From the NCBI GenBank assembly GCA_024644775.1, contig JAHEHB010000014.1, positions 1 through 28,599 of the forward strand: a DNA stretch of 28,599 bases, given 5' to 3'. The notes under the pieces are model-generated. The model saw nothing but the letters and a program-made list of their open reading frames with translations, was not told where the DNA came from and did not search any database. This document shows positions 7,905 to 20,243 of the stretch, in pieces (position 1 is the first letter of the stretch; the number at the start of each line of letters is the position of its first letter). This DNA comes from Deltaproteobacteria bacterium. GTDB lineage: Bacteria; Desulfobacterota; Desulfobacteria; Desulfobacterales; SURF-15. A program made the position numbers and the translations under genes.

Positions 7905-8828
7905 ATGGGCAATCAAATCCGAACCACCATTCTGCTTGCGGTGCTCACCGCTTTTATTCTTTGGATCGGTCAACTACTGGGTGGACGCCAGGGAATAGTG
8001 GTTGCACTCCTATTTGCTGCCGGGATCAATTTTTTTAGTTACTGGTTTTCGGATAAAGTGGTCTTAAAAATGTATCGCGCTCAAGAAGCTACCCCACAGC
8101 AGGCACCGGAGTTATATCAGATTGTCGGTAATCTTAGCCAAAGCGCCGGTCTTCCGATGCCCAAAGTGTTCATAATCCCGCAGGAGGCTCCCAACGCGTT
8201 TGCGACGGGAAGAAACCCGGCGCATGCAGTGGTTGCCGTAACCCAAGGGCTTCTCAAAATCATGAACAGAGACGAGATTACCGGTGTGCTGGCGCATGAG
8301 CTGGCTCACGTAAAAAACCGGGATATCCTCATCGGCTCCATTGCCGCAACCATGGCAGGCGCTGTCATGATGTTGGCTACCATGGCTCGGTGGTCCGCTA
8401 TGTTCGGCGGTTTTCGCAGTGACGATGATGAAGGCGGCGGTCTGGGTTTTATCGGTTTGATCGTCATGTCTATTTTGGCGCCTCTTGCGGCGGCACTCAT
8501 TCAAATGGCCATTTCCCGATCTAGAGAATACTTGGCCGATACCACAGGCGCCAGTATCGTGGGGCATCCCGAGGGTCTCGCCCGTGCGTTGGAGATATTA
8601 GGGGCCTACTCTCGGCGAATTCCATTGGACGCAAATCCGTCTACGGCTCACATGTTCATTGTTAATCCACTTTCCGGAAAAAGCCTGATGGGTCTTTTTT
8701 CAACCCATCCTCCGTTGGAAGAACGCATCCGGCGACTCCGCGGAAATGGTAATAGCGACTCGGACGCGCGCAGCGATGAAGATCGACGGATTTCAGAGGC
8801 CAAAAATTTCTGGGATCGGCTTTCATGA
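7905..8828 (+). CDS. htpX: Membrane zinc metalloprotease HtpX (M48B)
   Basis: A 307-residue inner-membrane protease that degrades misfolded membrane proteins. Two N-terminal hydrophobic segments (about 7-24 and 29-48) precede the protease domain. Zinc ligands are His131 and His135 in AHELAHVKNRD, catalytic Glu132, and third ligand Glu208 in SREYLAD. Two further hydrophobic stretches flank the active-site region (about 141-160 and 181-203), and an acidic, glycine-rich linker (RSDDDEGGG) lies between them. The typical THPPLEERIRRL motif ends the domain. AAAGGAG precedes the ATG by 7 nt. Length and motif order are normal for HtpX. A second, broken M48 protease lies at 23606-24837. Confidence 0.97.
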   Translation: MGNQIRTTILLAVLTAFILWIGQLLGGRQGIVVALLFAAGINFFSYWFSDKVVLKMYRAQEATPQQAPELYQIVGNLSQSAGLPMPKVFIIPQEAPNAFATGRNPAHAVVAVTQGLLKIMNRDEITGVLAHELAHVKNRDILIGSIAATMAGAVMMLATMARWSAMFGGFRSDDDEGGGLGFIGLIVMSILAPLAAALIQMAISRSREYLADTTGASIVGHPEGLARALEILGAYSRRIPLDANPSTAHMFIVNPLSGKSLMGLFSTHPPLEERIRRLRGNGNSDSDARSDEDRRISEAKNFWDRLS

Positions 8829-8878
8829 TAGGCTTTGACGTCTATGCAGTCTTCGTACAACCCCAACTATGTACAGAA

Positions 8879-8894
8879 TCTCAACATTTTGAGA
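8879..8894. promoter_or_regulatory. Dyad operator-like site 1
   Basis: tctcaacattttgaga: 6-bp arms around 4 bp. It shares the core TCAAMATTTTGA with the site at 8989-9004. It could be an activator site for the sigma-54 promoter at 9201; inference only. Confidence 0.3.
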
Positions 8895-8988
8895 CGGTTA
8901 TTGAGCGACGGGTTTAAAACTATAAATATTGATATATTTAATAATATTAGTTGCTTAAGATATTTATCACCGGTTGTTGGACTTAGCG

Positions 8989-9004
8989 GTTCAAAATTTT
9001 GAAC
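8989..9004. promoter_or_regulatory. Dyad operator-like site 2
   Basis: gttcaaaattttgaac is a perfect 16-bp palindrome, centred 110 bp from site 1 and about 230 bp upstream of the predicted sigma-54 start. It matches site 1 at 11 of 12 core positions. Confidence 0.35.
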
Positions 9005-9181
9005 TTTGTTGAATGTGAAAAAAAGCATTGAAAACAACCCGTTTCTGAACCGGTCTCGATTCGGGTTTAAGATTGTGAACCAAATCGTAGAATAATGCCG
9101 GTATGTTTCTGGAGAATTGGGGCTGAAATGCGATTGTGATTTTTATATAACCAATTGAAATTAAATTAAATAATCTATTTT

Positions 9182-9247
9182 TTAATTTTTTTTTAATAAG
9201 TTGGCAAGTAATTTGCTAATACTTTTACTAACCGAATAATTTTTCAT
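9182..9247 (-). CDS. Possible 21-residue peptide (alternative reading of the sRNA locus)
   Basis: Leftward ATG at 9247 with a strong AAAGGAGGAG 6 nt before it encodes MKNYSVSKSISKLLANLLKK plus one Asn, a short amphipathic, basic peptide. The apparent ribosome-binding site is simply the complement of the CUCCUCC in the rightward small-RNA candidate, and the hairpin upstream of it has its T-tract on the other strand. I therefore favour the RNA reading; this is kept only as an alternative. Confidence 0.2.
   Translation of the reverse strand: MKNYSVSKSISKLLANLLKKN
9201..9217 (+). promoter_or_regulatory. Sigma-54 (RpoN) promoter, -24/-12
   Basis: ttggcaagtaatttgct matches the TTGGCACG-N4-TTGCW consensus at nearly every position, with the invariant GG (9203-9204) and GC (9215-9216) 12 bp apart as required. 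The predicted start is about 9227-9228. A long A/T tract lies just upstream (9170-9199). Confidence 0.6.
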
Positions 9248-9302
9248 CTGTTCTCCTCCTTTTTCTTTAGGCTAATCAGAGAAACTCTGATTAGCCTTTT
9301 TA
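9228..9302 (+). ncRNA. Candidate sigma-54-dependent small RNA with anti-Shine-Dalgarno region
   Basis: The stretch between the sigma-54 promoter and a strong terminator is about 75 nt and contains no rightward open frame. Its 5' part is A/U-rich and unstructured. It then carries ucuguucuccuccuuuuuc (9247-9265), a pyrimidine-rich single-stranded region complementary to ribosome-binding sites, followed directly by the terminator hairpin and U-tract, which is the layout of trans-acting, Hfq-type small RNAs. It could instead be an attenuated leader for the operon at 9552, but 250 bp separate them and a sigma-70-like promoter lies between. Confidence 0.45.
9269..9301 (+). terminator. Rho-independent terminator of the small-RNA candidate
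   Basis: A perfect 13-bp stem (9269-9281 with 9285-9297) with an AAA loop, followed by tttta. The T-tract is only on the rightward side; leftward, the hairpin is followed by aaagaaaaagg. Confidence 0.9.
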
Positions 9303-9421
9303 ATTTAAAAATCCCGACAGATAAAAGAGAAATTAAATCTTCGATTTTATATCCGGGCGATCTATTTCTGTATGATCCGGTTCTGAATAATCCGGCAAAT
9401 CATTATAACGGTCAATTTTCC

Positions 9422-9451
9422 TTGACAAGAAATTATCAATTCGGTTATTTT
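9422..9451 (+). promoter_or_regulatory. Sigma-70-like promoter for the rsbRD-dsrMKJOP unit
   Basis: TTGACA (9422-9427), an 18-bp spacer, then TATTTT (9446-9451), about 90 bp upstream of the first gene of the operon. The -35 is perfect and the -10 is moderate. Confidence 0.45.
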
Positions 9452-9551
9452 ATCTCCTTTTTGGATTAATATTACTGCAAATTACTGCGTATGAAGATTT
9501 TTCCGCAGGGCATCGCGAAAATTAGGGAGGTTCGGGATCGGTCTGATAAAC

Positions 9552-10070
9552 ATGAAGCTGGAAAATCTTTTGGATCCAAAAAAAGATGTGATCCTAAAAA
9601 AATGGTTTGATCTGGTAATGAAGACCTATCCTGAAGATACCGCCAAATTCTTTATTCGGAAAAAGGATGCCTTTGCCAATCCGGTGGGAAGTACCGTATA
9701 CCAGGGATTAAAGGCTCTTCTACAAGAGTTGGTGGGGGGCATGGATCATCAAACACTAAAATCTTTTCTCGATCCAATTGTCAGGATACGGGCCGTTCAG
9801 GGCTTTTCTCCATCGGATGCCCTGTCGTTTATTTTTTCATTGAAAACCATCATTCGAGATCTGTTTGCAGAAGAGATTAGAATTAACCCGGATTTTGCGC
9901 GCGCGTTGCTGGCATTTGAAACCGATATCGATACACTTTCTCTAATCGCCTTTGACCGTTACAGTGCCTGCAGAGAAAAGATTTATGAGCTGAAAGCAAA
10001 TGAAGTGGGACATCGAGCGATTCGCGCCTTAAAAAAAGCGAAATTGGTGACAGATCATCAACCGGATTGA
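9552..10070 (+). CDS. RsbRD N-terminal domain protein heading the dsr operon
   Basis: A 172-residue cytoplasmic protein consisting only of a helical RsbRD_N-type sensor domain (EDTAKFFIRKKDAFANPVG at about 28-46, SPSDALSFIFSLKTIIRDL at about 86-104), with no STAS domain after it. In other bacteria such domains sit at the N-terminus of RsbR-type stressosome regulators. Genes of this kind occur upstream of dsrM in sulfate reducers, as I recall. It lies 68 bp before dsrM, downstream of a sigma-70-like promoter, so it is probably the first gene of the dsr transcript. A role in assembling or regulating the complex is inference. The ribosome-binding site is weak (GGGAGGTTCGGGATCGG, about 20 nt upstream). 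Confidence 0.75.
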   Translation: MKLENLLDPKKDVILKKWFDLVMKTYPEDTAKFFIRKKDAFANPVGSTVYQGLKALLQELVGGMDHQTLKSFLDPIVRIRAVQGFSPSDALSFIFSLKTIIRDLFAEEIRINPDFARALLAFETDIDTLSLIAFDRYSACREKIYELKANEVGHRAIRALKKAKLVTDHQPD

Positions 10071-15971: not shown

Positions 15972-16053
15972 TGATGCCCATTTTTACATAATTATTGTAA
16001 AACACCTCCGTATTGTATAAGAATTTCCGGTGGAGTCAAGGAGAATGCCTGAT

Positions 16054-16899
16054 ATGATTATCGATTTTCACACCCATATTTTTCCTGCAACCATACGAGA
16101 TAACAGGAGTAAGTATTTTTCTTCCGAATCGGGGTTCAATATTTTGTATCGTTCGCCGAAATCAAAGTTGGTGGGCGTAGAGGCACTGATTAATTCCATG
16201 GATAAGCATCGTGTCGACAAGTCTGTGGTTTTCGGATTTCCTTGGAAGAATACGACAACCGCAAAAAAGCATAACGATTATATTATGAATGCGGTAGCAA
16301 AATACGAGGAACGCCTCATCGGTCTTTGCTGTCTGGATCCATTGAATAAAAATTCGGTTCCCGAAGCCATCCGTTGTATCCAAGGGGGATTGTCCGGTAT
16401 CGGTGAGCTTGCACTATACGACACGAAATTGGATCAGCGATTTCTTGACAGCTTGGATCCCCTGATGGAAATTTGTTTTGAAAAGGATATACCGGCTCTG
16501 ATTCACACAAATGAGCCCATTGGCCATGCGTATCATGGAAAGACTTCGATGGACATACGTGATATATACGGAATGGTAAAACGGTTTCATCGAAACAAGC
16601 TCGTTTTCGCTCATTGGGGTGGCGGCTTACTGTTTTTTAACCTTTTAAAGAAGGAGGTCAAAGAAACCCTCAAGAACGTTTACTACGATACGGCAGCCTC
16701 TCCATTTCTTTATGATCCTACCATCTACTCGGTTGCCACACAAATTCTCGGTAAAGATAGAATCCTTTTTGGTAGTGACTTTCCGCTGTTGTCTCCGGAT
16801 CGATATTTTAAAGAACTGGCGGCCATTGATCTTACAAGGGATGAAATCGTGCGAATCTGTGGGTTGAATGCGGCCACGTTACTAAAGCTGGTCATGTGA
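16054..16899 (+). CDS. Amidohydrolase 2 family metal-dependent hydrolase
   Basis: A 281-residue TIM-barrel hydrolase of the amidohydrolase-2 (ACMSD-like) family. Metal-binding HTH motif at His6/His8 (IDFHTHIFP), ALIHTNEP in the middle, LVFAHWGGG as the next His, and the catalytic Asp in ILFGSDFPLLSP near the C-terminus. I chose ATG 16054 because AAGGAG lies 10 nt upstream and the protein then begins right at the first barrel strand; ATG 16045 and GTG 16030 are in frame but too close to or before that site. Substrate unknown; hydrolases and decarboxylases both occur in the family. Leftward YkgJ-type gene follows. Confidence 0.88.
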   Translation: MIIDFHTHIFPATIRDNRSKYFSSESGFNILYRSPKSKLVGVEALINSMDKHRVDKSVVFGFPWKNTTTAKKHNDYIMNAVAKYEERLIGLCCLDPLNKNSVPEAIRCIQGGLSGIGELALYDTKLDQRFLDSLDPLMEICFEKDIPALIHTNEPIGHAYHGKTSMDIRDIYGMVKRFHRNKLVFAHWGGGLLFFNLLKKEVKETLKNVYYDTAASPFLYDPTIYSVATQILGKDRILFGSDFPLLSPDRYFKELAAIDLTRDEIVRICGLNAATLLKLVM

Positions 16900-17877: not shown

Positions 17878-18984
17878 ATGAAAAGTACCGTTTATTTTAT
17901 GGACTTAAGAGCCAGCTATAAAAATAATCTTATCAAAAAGCTTTGCCGACTCATGGATTCTGCGACGATTTCCCGTGTCATCAAAGAAAGAGACCGGATC
18001 GCCGTAAAGCTTCACTTTGGTGAGCGAGGGAACACTGCATTTATCCGGCCTGTATTTATAAGAGAAATTGTAAGAAAAATCAGAGAAATGGGGGGTGTTC
18101 CCTTTTTGACCGATTCCAATACGCTGTACCGAGGCACTCGCAGTGATGCACCCCGCCATCTTGAAACCGCCTTTCAAAACGGTTTTTCCTATACGGTTGT
18201 GGATGCCCCGGTTATCATTGCCGACGGACTCCGGGGAAGCAGTGAAACCACTGTTGATATTCATCAGAAACGATTCAAACACGTCTTTATCGCCTCTGAA
18301 ATCGTCCATGCTGATGGCATGGTGTCTGTTGCACATTTCAAAGGACATGAACTCACCGGATTTGCCGGTACGTTAAAAAATATCGGGATGGGATGTGCAT
18401 CCCGGAAAGGAAAACTGGCACAACACTCGTCTGTTTCACCGAAAGTGAAAACGAAAAAATGTATTGGCTGTGGAGACTGTATCATACGCTGTCCGGTGGA
18501 TGCGATTTTTCTTAAAGACGATAAGGCGGCGATCGATACAGACGTGTGTATCGGTTGTGGTGAGTGTATTCTCATTTGCCCCACTGAGGCCGTTGGAATC
18601 CGGTGGAATCAATCCATTCCGGTGTTTTTAGAAAATATGGTGGAATACGCATTGGGAGCGTTAAAGGCAAAAACCGATAAAACCTTATTTTTAAATTTTA
18701 TCACAGATGTCTCCCCCTCCTGTGATTGCCCGCCCTATAACGATGCACCGATTGTACGAGATATCGGCATTGTTGCCGCAGATGATCCTGTGGCCATCGA
18801 TCAAGCTTCCGTCGACCTGGTCAATCAAGAAACCGCTGTTTTAGGATCCTGCCTGAAAGAAAATGTCCAACCTGGCGAAGACAAATTTAAAGGGATGTAC
18901 CCAAAGGTAGACTGGTCCCTACAGTTAGATTATGCTGAACACCTGGGGCTGGGAACCCGGCATTATGACCTTATAAAGATTTAA
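17878..18984 (+). CDS. DUF362 protein with 2x[4Fe-4S] ferredoxin domain
   Basis: A 368-residue protein: N-terminal DUF362 part (about 1-185) with KLHFGERGNT and SVAHFKGHELTGFAGTLKN, then a bacterial ferredoxin domain with CIGCGDCIIRCP (197-208) and CIGCGECILICP (226-237), then the rest of DUF362 (PVAIDQASVDLVN). The family is common in anaerobes, often as an iron-sulfur protein of unknown redox partner. No signal peptide. TCAGGAG precedes the ATG by 6 nt. The stop overlaps that of the convergent porin gene by 4 bp. Confidence 0.93.
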   Translation: MKSTVYFMDLRASYKNNLIKKLCRLMDSATISRVIKERDRIAVKLHFGERGNTAFIRPVFIREIVRKIREMGGVPFLTDSNTLYRGTRSDAPRHLETAFQNGFSYTVVDAPVIIADGLRGSSETTVDIHQKRFKHVFIASEIVHADGMVSVAHFKGHELTGFAGTLKNIGMGCASRKGKLAQHSSVSPKVKTKKCIGCGDCIIRCPVDAIFLKDDKAAIDTDVCIGCGECILICPTEAVGIRWNQSIPVFLENMVEYALGALKAKTDKTLFLNFITDVSPSCDCPPYNDAPIVRDIGIVAADDPVAIDQASVDLVNQETAVLGSCLKENVQPGEDKFKGMYPKVDWSLQLDYAEHLGLGTRHYDLIKI

Positions 18985-20243
18985 AATCGGTAGCTGACGT
19001 TTAATGCAAAAATGTGGGCACGAATATCTGTAAATTCGCCGGTGAACCGGCCCACAGGCGTGTTACCGGACGCGTTGTTAAACGTTCGATCTTCGTCCAA
19101 TAAAAAATTGTATGCCAAATCGACCGTCCATTTATTATGGTGAATACCGGAACCCACCGTAAAAAGCCATCGATCACCGGATGGTACCAATACATCCAGC
19201 GTATCGCTGGGAATCGGTGTCTTATCGTAAATGATACCCCCCCTTAAATCTAACCACTCATTGAGCCGGTACTGACCGCCGAACCGATAGGCCCACACAT
19301 CCTTCCAATCTTTTCGATTGGAGATGGTGGAGCCGTTGTCCAGGTTCACCTCCAGTTTTTCATACGTCGACCATTCGGTCCACTGGGCATCGAACTCCAG
19401 GGTCAATGCGTTCCATGTCCAGGCAATCCCAACGTACAGCACAGATGGTAATTCAATATTTGCACTGGCGCCGAATTTTCGATCGCCCCCGACAGCAGCG
19501 GGCACATTGGTCAGCGAGAGTCGGCCGCCGGTAATGCTGTGATCGATTCGGCTTCGATAGGAAGCCCCCAACTTAATACCGTCGGTTAACCACAAGAGGG
19601 CTCCCACATTCCAACCCCATTCCCAGTCGTCACCCTCCACGTTGCTATCTGCTTCAGGTAAGCCGGAAGCAAAAAACCGTTTGTTTTTAAGTTCCACATC
19701 CAGATACTGGATCATGGGGCCTGCAGAAAGGCTGAATTTTCGAAATGGGCGAAATGCAACCACAGGGTTGATCGATACGGTTGTTAAATTCGCCTCCGTA
19801 CCGCCTGTTAAAAACCGTCCTTCCCAATCATCCGGCCAATCGGTCCCAAGACCGAAATTGGAAAAGACACCGAGGCCAAACCCGATGCTCTCATTGTATC
19901 GATAGGTGGCATATGCGTTGGGTACAAAAAAAACCGAATCTTCAAGATCCGTCTTCTTACCAACGGTTGTATTTAAGATGGAATTTTCCGTATTGCTTTT
20001 GAAACTCGCCTTGGGAATAATGGGACTCACTCCCACCGTCACCTGAACGCCTTCAAGTTGCATAATTCCGGCCGGGTTGTAAAAGACAGCCGAAGGGTCG
20101 TCGGCTTGTGCCACAAAGGCACCGCCCATGCCGATGGCTCGAGCCGATTGCTCGTTGATGGCAAACCCGCTGCCAAAGGACTGTGCCGGGATGAGTAAAA
20201 GACCGATCAGCCAAAAACACCTCACGAACCGATTCGTTTTCAT
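18981..20243 (-). CDS. FadL/OmpP1 family outer-membrane transporter
   Basis: A 420-residue outer-membrane beta barrel for hydrophobic compounds such as long-chain fatty acids. A signal peptide (about 1-24, ending AQSFGSG) precedes the FadL-type plug, which begins SGFAINEQSARAIGMGGAF and includes DDPSAVFYNPAGIM, the family signature. Alternating aromatic/polar strands follow and the chain ends in NVSYRF with a terminal Phe, as needed for barrel assembly. AAAGGAG lies 8 nt before the ATG. Substrate cannot be told; in this kind of organism it could be fatty acids or aromatic compounds. Confidence 0.93.
   Translation of the reverse strand: MKTNRFVRCFWLIGLLLIPAQSFGSGFAINEQSARAIGMGGAFVAQADDPSAVFYNPAGIMQLEGVQVTVGVSPIIPKASFKSNTENSILNTTVGKKTDLEDSVFFVPNAYATYRYNESIGFGLGVFSNFGLGTDWPDDWEGRFLTGGTEANLTTVSINPVVAFRPFRKFSLSAGPMIQYLDVELKNKRFFASGLPEADSNVEGDDWEWGWNVGALLWLTDGIKLGASYRSRIDHSITGGRLSLTNVPAAVGGDRKFGASANIELPSVLYVGIAWTWNALTLEFDAQWTEWSTYEKLEVNLDNGSTISNRKDWKDVWAYRFGGQYRLNEWLDLRGGIIYDKTPIPSDTLDVLVPSGDRWLFTVGSGIHHNKWTVDLAYNFLLDEDRTFNNASGNTPVGRFTGEFTDIRAHIFALNVSYRF

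Follow-up and report, generated by a model that had tools for sequence, protein, structure and literature searches.

In the window, as the whole analysed stretch of 28,599 nucleotides is called here, there is quite probably the gene of a trans-acting small RNA, about 75 nt in length, which would be controlled by a kinase and a regulator and would block the starts of messages through its 5' arm. The following mechanism is inferred, from the signal through binding of the regulator and transcription to repression and the target of the window's own RNA. The palindromes at 8909-9083 would be bound by a histidine kinase and an NtrC/AtoC-type response regulator, both encoded outside the window. The regulator and the sigma-54 polymerase would start the RNA near 9228-9230, and the RNA would end at the terminator at 9269-9302. 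The exposed 5' arm would then pair with the Shine-Dalgarno sequence, the start codon and the first codons of its targets, which probably include a porin in at least one lineage. It is proposed that ribosome loading is blocked because the arm pairs over the message start. Comparison of relatives establishes, at the level of sequence, the conservation of the RNA, its promoter, enhancers and terminator, and its linkage to the regulator gene. The features of the window are as follows.

8909-8930, no strand assigned: putative distal enhancer palindrome CGGGTTTAAAACTATAAATATT, weak (15.6 bits), centred at -282 from the -24 element
8986-9007, no strand assigned: putative middle enhancer palindrome GCGGTTCAAAATTTTGAACTTT, 28.6 bits, centred at -205 from the -24 element
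9062-9083, no strand assigned: putative proximal enhancer palindrome CGGGTTTAAGATTGTGAACCAA, 22.4 bits, centred at -129 from the -24 element
9202-9216, plus strand: predicted sigma-54 -24/-12 promoter TGGCAAGTAATTTGC, an exact match to TGGCANGNNNNTTGC
9229-9305, plus strand: predicted small RNA with a start at about 9228-9230, scoring 62.2 bits with covariance model R1, a value that is not independent since the window sequence is one training row of R1
9230-9259, plus strand: conserved 5' arm AACCGAAUAAUUUUUCAUCUGUUCUCCUCC, for the most part unpaired, through which pairing is proposed (alignments A1 and A2; fold)
9253-9259, plus strand: CUCCUCC anti-Shine-Dalgarno motif, read directly as CTCCTCC
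9269-9302, plus strand: intrinsic terminator, a 13-bp stem and a T run (fold; stem covariation in relatives)
18981-20243, minus strand: FadL/Toluene_X outer-membrane protein gene (Pfam Toluene_X), a candidate target only, with the best-pairing gene start in the window

The window carries a dsrMKJOP locus in which an RsbRD_N gene precedes dsrM and an amidohydrolase gene follows dsrP; HtpX is encoded upstream. Its dsrM is 56-71% identical to 30 relatives, and the best seven by table order (62-71%) come from Desulfobacterales or Desulfobacteraceae MAGs, so that the DNA probably stems from a member of Desulfobacterales. An earlier note on this DNA had described a near-consensus -24/-12 promoter and a terminator with no rightward open frame between them, and indeed no rightward frame of at least 60 aa overlaps 9202-9302. 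Exact matches to TGGCANGNNNNTTGC in the window are limited to the element TGGCAAGTAATTTGC. Matches with one mismatch number four against 1.7 expected; because this is near chance, the promoter alone is weak evidence.

The locus was compared with relatives at several scales. The promoter and CTCCTCC pattern gave three matches in the genomes of 16 relatives; the window block (TAATTTCTTCATCTGTTCTCCTCC) was present in two of them and absent from the third (L031). The promoter with TTCTCCTCC in the same layout was found at 44 sites in 41 of 291 genomes from the order of G010, and the reversed-pattern control in these genomes gave none among the matches listed. The site rises above chance because this layout is conserved. 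As the 44 sites had been selected by their promoter, covariance model R1 was built from the RNA alone, without the promoter, on alignment A2 (33 rows; L060 was left out of A1 and A2, and A2 also omits one copy each from L037, the second, and L038, the middle one). R1 matches 172 of the 291 order genomes at E<=1e-3, and incomplete genomes and strict filters may account for some of the 119 negative ones. In a sample of 395 genomes from the phylum, scanned with the stricter filters used in large scans, 14 matched at E<=1e-4. Only one of these, the weak match G396, was not among the order genomes already seen, and no clear match to R1 was obtained outside the order in this sample. The window RNA and four relatives had no match in Rfam, and a literature search of open-licence papers returned no description of this small-RNA family. 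Judged by sequence similarity, 9229-9305 of the window belongs to a conserved small-RNA family that is common to many sulfate reducers of one order.

The core of the RNA is also found in other settings. Genome G182 contains five more copies, (A/T)TCATCTGTTCTCC(T/C)..., with TTAACG and a hairpin (L173, L174, two in L175, and L176). No sigma-54 site stands before them; TGTAAC lies about 15-16 nt ahead of GTCTC-like boxes, an arrangement that we take to resemble ECF sigma promoters. In L180, L181 and L182 (G136, G042 and G197), the same core and terminator, with a different 5' arm, follow TTGACA and TATTTT-like boxes that look as if they formed a sigma-70 promoter.

The promoter could be assessed in relatives that had been found without it. 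Forty regions with R1 matches that the promoter pattern had not returned, together with L005, gave 44 matches. The GG and GC of the -24/-12 element are kept in 43 of these, with L125 as the exception, and the consensus score averages 10.5 of 12, compared with 6.5 when the best site is taken from random stretches of 60 nt. The 12-bp GG-GC phasing described by the earlier note is exact in the window, and the loss of GG/GC in relatives, which the same note had named as grounds for abandoning its reading, was confined to that one match. The GC lies 12-17 nt from the model start in 42 of the 44 matches and 24-25 nt from it in two. A duplicated 5' end (CAGCCTAATTAT then ACCTAATAAT) was seen in L096 and L098, where the model start is 24-25 nt from the -12 GC.

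The plus strand of 9226-9304 folds at -21.0 kcal/mol (z -5.4). The terminator has the 13 bp that had been reported for it: the stem, with a 3-nt loop, occupies 9269-9297 and is followed by a T-rich stretch. This is the sole terminator-like site in 8800-9700, where shuffles average 0.7. Among relatives, 11 of the 13 stem pairs show compensating double changes, and none of 500 shuffles reached the observed covariation on any of the five measures, although covariation of a terminator may be expected regardless of whether the RNA acts. The family RNA has two parts, an arm of about 31 nt that is largely unpaired, and the terminator; in the window, the arm folds into one weak 5-pair helix within 9230-9259. 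In the family alignments, the arm is conserved while the stem varies with compensation. Of the elements for which conservation had been proposed as a check, the promoter and terminator are kept in relatives, whereas CUCCUCC is common but not invariant, as relatives often carry U-richer forms.

The same conserved block can be read on the opposite strand, as the ribosome-binding site and start of a peptide (21 residues in the window) with the hairpin in its leader. The minus strand does have a good Shine-Dalgarno sequence, an ATG at a spacing of 8 nt and 21 codons. Nevertheless, this reading is extremely improbable. The length of the frame varies from 4 to 71 codons among 75 family members, six of which have no ATG, the promoter-to-ATG distance is spread over all three frames, and indels in the T run shift the frame. 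In addition, the -24/-12 element and the terminator point the opposite way. The 21-residue peptide was rejected because its frame is not kept in the family, and the conserved coding evidence that would have spoken against a small RNA was not found.

Palindromic enhancers (GGTTCAAAATTTTGAACC) lie upstream of the family promoters, usually three of them about 78 bp apart. They were scored with a weight matrix trained on the family's own upstream regions (n=74, with loci whose start escaped the text patterns left out). The dyad GTTCA-N6-TGAAC occurs in 45 of the 74 regions and about 0 times in shuffles, and at least one matrix site is present in 64 of 74, compared with 7.3 of 74 shuffled regions. 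Three sites were counted in 46 regions, two in 11, one in 5, four in 2 and none in 10. Relative to the -24 element, the sites concentrate around -138, -217 and -294, with a spacing mode of 78 bp. Ten of the 74 regions lack the main enhancer and carry GGTTTCCA-NN-TGGAAACC-like palindromes instead. A hand count in 40 genomes gave 32 near-perfect palindromes, of which 26 adjoin the RNA and 6 lie elsewhere. The conservation of these palindromes in the family is consistent with control by an enhancer-binding regulator, as the earlier note suggested.

The regulator of the RNA is probably an NtrC/AtoC-type response regulator, as predicted from gene neighbourhoods and co-occurrence. In several family loci, the RNA is found downstream of one gene of this type. 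Among the matches listed, at least 50 R1 matches lie 187-539 nt downstream of the regulator gene on the same strand, and copies with GGTTCAAA enhancers are likewise found adjoining it. The regulator copy in L035 has receiver, sigma-54 AAA+ and Fis-type HTH domains (Pfam) and reads GSFTGA at the position where GAFTGA is the usual motif. An ortholog is present in 25 of 27 small-RNA genomes at 71-81% identity (the query's own genome aside), while paralogs reach at most 49%. When the regulator was counted as present at E<=1e-200 in the 291 genomes, 143 had both it and the RNA, 29 the RNA only, 20 the regulator only and 99 neither (Fisher p ~1e-30, kinship not corrected). A kinase gene with two predicted membrane helices lies upstream of the regulator gene in the four loci checked; one of these kinase genes is a cut piece. 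A gene with TPR repeats lies convergently downstream of the regulator gene (L247:747-1433), and a 229-codon open reading frame was seen at similar places in L249, L253 and L266.

The window itself contains no regulator gene, and a search for a regulator ortholog in G021 and G193, which have the RNA, found none. Such cases might mean that the RNA is driven by sigma-54 but that copies far from the regulator gene, including the one in the window, obey a different enhancer-binding protein. This is rather unlikely: the GGTTCAAA enhancer is common to copies near the regulator gene and copies far from it, and palindromes of this kind seldom occur elsewhere in the 40 genomes. Control by the NtrC/AtoC-type regulator is preferred, and its recognition helix provides further information. 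In 47 matches examined, of which 33 had a readable regulator tail, one helix residue goes with the enhancer sequence without exception (28 of 28 genomes). It is K with GGTTTCCA-class enhancers (12/12 rows; 10/10 genomes after removing repeats) and Q or W with GGTTCAAA-class enhancers (21/21 rows; 18/18 genomes after removing repeats). In a tree of 45 C-terminal regulator pieces, which had no outgroup and a bootstrap that had not settled, five K rows group (95/97) with G181, a Q row with GGTTCAAA sites, and stand separate from the five other K rows; the tree tool's own count of K-vs-W changes, with Q rows left out, is 1. The split of the K rows is read as a sign that there were at least two joint changes of residue and enhancer, or a single one with a reversal.

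How the RNA might act is suggested by its arm, which is conserved and complementary to a Shine-Dalgarno sequence, spacer and start codon together. This agrees with the earlier proposal that the exposed segment is able to pair with ribosome-binding sites. The best case comes from a variant arm, AACCAAUAG, carried by five genomes among 40 searched for a matching start. In each of the five, a gene that begins with MKKLLVVLLVLGLA(A/V)PA(M/I)A pairs along the arm. In G163, 30 of 31 nt of the arm pair with this start, with one G-U, and within 400 kb it ranks first of 309 starts at -46.7 kcal/mol, the next being -29.0. The product is a putative porin, as Pfam matches of the two proteins scanned are beta-barrel or porin-like but below the curated cut-offs. 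The putative porin gene is a near upstream neighbour of the RNA in G232. The porin start is strongly predicted to be the target in the variant-arm lineage.

For the window, the evidence is suggestive only. The FadL start pairs at -24.0 kcal/mol and ranks first of 23 starts, and 33 of 2000 shuffled RNAs do as well. FadL is the leading candidate for the target of the window's own RNA. In lineages with the canonical arm, no extended target was found at up to 3 mismatches beyond weak matches. Loose start-site matches comprise 26 gene starts against 12 in a scrambled control, a weak excess; one of the 26, L181, in fact lies antisense to a different small RNA. An enrichment of exported proteins among these matches was considered and rejected as not specific, as the proportions were 23/26 and 10/12 in the scrambled-spacer control, and an HU-like protein (L164) was among those accepted by the crude signal-peptide test. 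The suggestion that many messages are silenced thus gained nothing from this comparison.

The RNA may also be real but bind a protein or another RNA, as a sponge would, and not message starts. The uncertainty about the window's own target and the lack of a long target in canonical-arm lineages fit this explanation. Moreover, cross-talk of a sponge-like kind could arise, since the core is shared with other RNAs. It is a highly unlikely explanation of the family as a whole, however, given the joint match of the arm to Shine-Dalgarno sequence, spacer and start codon, and the 30/31 nt pairing with the porin start in one lineage. The GGA motif, which is a mark of CsrA binding, is also absent from the window arm.

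Pairing with message starts is therefore the reading retained here, and a wider one can be offered tentatively, as a possibility that falls short of an even chance. The family may form an order-wide, possibly Hfq-independent envelope circuit with one kinase and regulator, phased enhancers and a porin-pairing RNA. The core behind ECF-like and sigma-70-like promoters would make it a multi-input porin-silencing hub, in which the sequences of regulator and enhancer underwent more than one joint switch. The small-RNA family would be widespread in an important group of sulfate reducers, and a regulator, a binding site and one target are predicted for it from sequence. The joint change of helix residue and enhancer would offer a test case for how enhancer-binding proteins change specificity, and a long-armed RNA in genomes without detected Hfq would bear on chaperone-free pairing.

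Sigma-54-driven small RNAs are already known, and what is unusual here are the phased enhancers, the specificity switch and the failure to detect Hfq in 40/40 genomes. The Hfq model TIGR02383 gave no match in these 40 relatives, and it was positive in 5 of 14 control genomes. Qrr1-5 of Vibrio with LuxO likewise have a sigma-54 promoter, upstream NtrC-type regulator sites and a short RNA with a terminator. Qrr RNAs pair with messages and have several copies in some genomes, as here. The family differs from them in having no Rfam match, another enhancer sequence, another lineage and no detected Hfq within the limits of that model. The layout like that of Qrr with a different sequence and lineage, which the earlier note had pointed out, is borne out by the conserved promoter, enhancers, arm and terminator, and the reading of the locus as a sigma-54-driven, enhancer-regulator-controlled small RNA laid out like Qrr is supported by the comparisons with relatives. 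Pxr of myxobacteria is likewise a small RNA of a former deltaproteobacterium and is sigma-54 dependent. It is described as three stem-loops, whereas the family here has a long open arm and one terminator stem. MicF, MicC and AbcR resemble the family in outer-membrane start pairing or a pyrimidine anti-Shine-Dalgarno motif; MicA, RybB and Rhodobacter CcsR are likewise porin-repressing or anti-Shine-Dalgarno RNAs. Compared with these porin-repressing and anti-Shine-Dalgarno RNAs, the family shows sigma-54 control, a predicted duplex of up to 31 nt and no detected Hfq. In Desulfovibrio vulgaris, the sigma-54 response regulators DVU0679 (Dv_sRNA2) and DVU0653 target a non-coding RNA just downstream, according to two papers (PMC3333781, PMC4641369). 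As described there, this system shares with the family a sulfate-reducing host, a sigma-54 two-component regulator and palindromic sites. Its layout, with the RNA directly downstream of the regulator, is met in at least 50 family matches but not in the window. Desulfovibrio vulgaris belongs to a different order, the target of the RNA is given as unknown there, and the two are likened by layout, not by sequence homology.

The position of the window RNA beside the sulfite-reduction operon, to which the earlier note drew attention, is upstream of RsbRD-dsrM. Among 30 dsrM loci, several of which had little upstream DNA, R1 matched only L005. A neighbourhood survey covered 90 oriented RNA loci of very unequal length (five of 95 were left out because their start pattern was unmatched), and 27 of the 90 show any of the RsbRD, dsrM or amidohydrolase genes. 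RsbRD(-dsrM) follows the RNA on the same strand at a distance of 450-1000 nt in the window and in G005, G024, G193, G157 and G056, with dsrM beyond the DNA examined in G193 and G157. As RsbRD-dsrM lies downstream in at least five other genomes, the neighbourhood recurs. The distance is 4.7 kb in G128, and in G241, dsrM is on the opposite strand, 8.6 kb from the RNA. In 13 other genomes, the next gene downstream, 146-406 nt from the RNA, is a relative of the window amidohydrolase (16030-16899) at 54-61% identity, hinting at an old RNA-dsr-amidohydrolase order.

This arrangement raises the question of whether the RNA or terminator mainly serves the RsbRD-dsrMKJOP operon, as a local leader or by start pairing. 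Both the recurrence of the neighbourhood, including its amidohydrolase, and the RsbRD start pairing of -22 to -25 kcal/mol in the window and G056 speak for such a role. It is nonetheless quite unlikely, as only the 27 of 90 oriented loci noted above show any of those genes, at least 50 matches put the RNA beside the regulator instead, and a terminator lies between RNA and operon. Furthermore, the RsbRD pairing was equalled by 31 to 524 of 1000 shuffled RNAs at seven loci, which is no better than shuffled RNAs in most of them. The dsr genes had been named among the targets to be predicted; the prediction yielded the porin start in the variant-arm lineage, whereas pairing with the RsbRD start is not convincing. 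A functional link between the RNA and dsr may exist.

Several loci carry more than one copy of the RNA. Four were seen in G056 (L060, L197, L198 and L199), where a second CUCCUC-like stretch and a second hairpin follow the first. Upstream of RsbRD-dsr, tandem copies number two in L037 (G024) and three in L038 (G193), and each of them has its own sigma-54 promoter.
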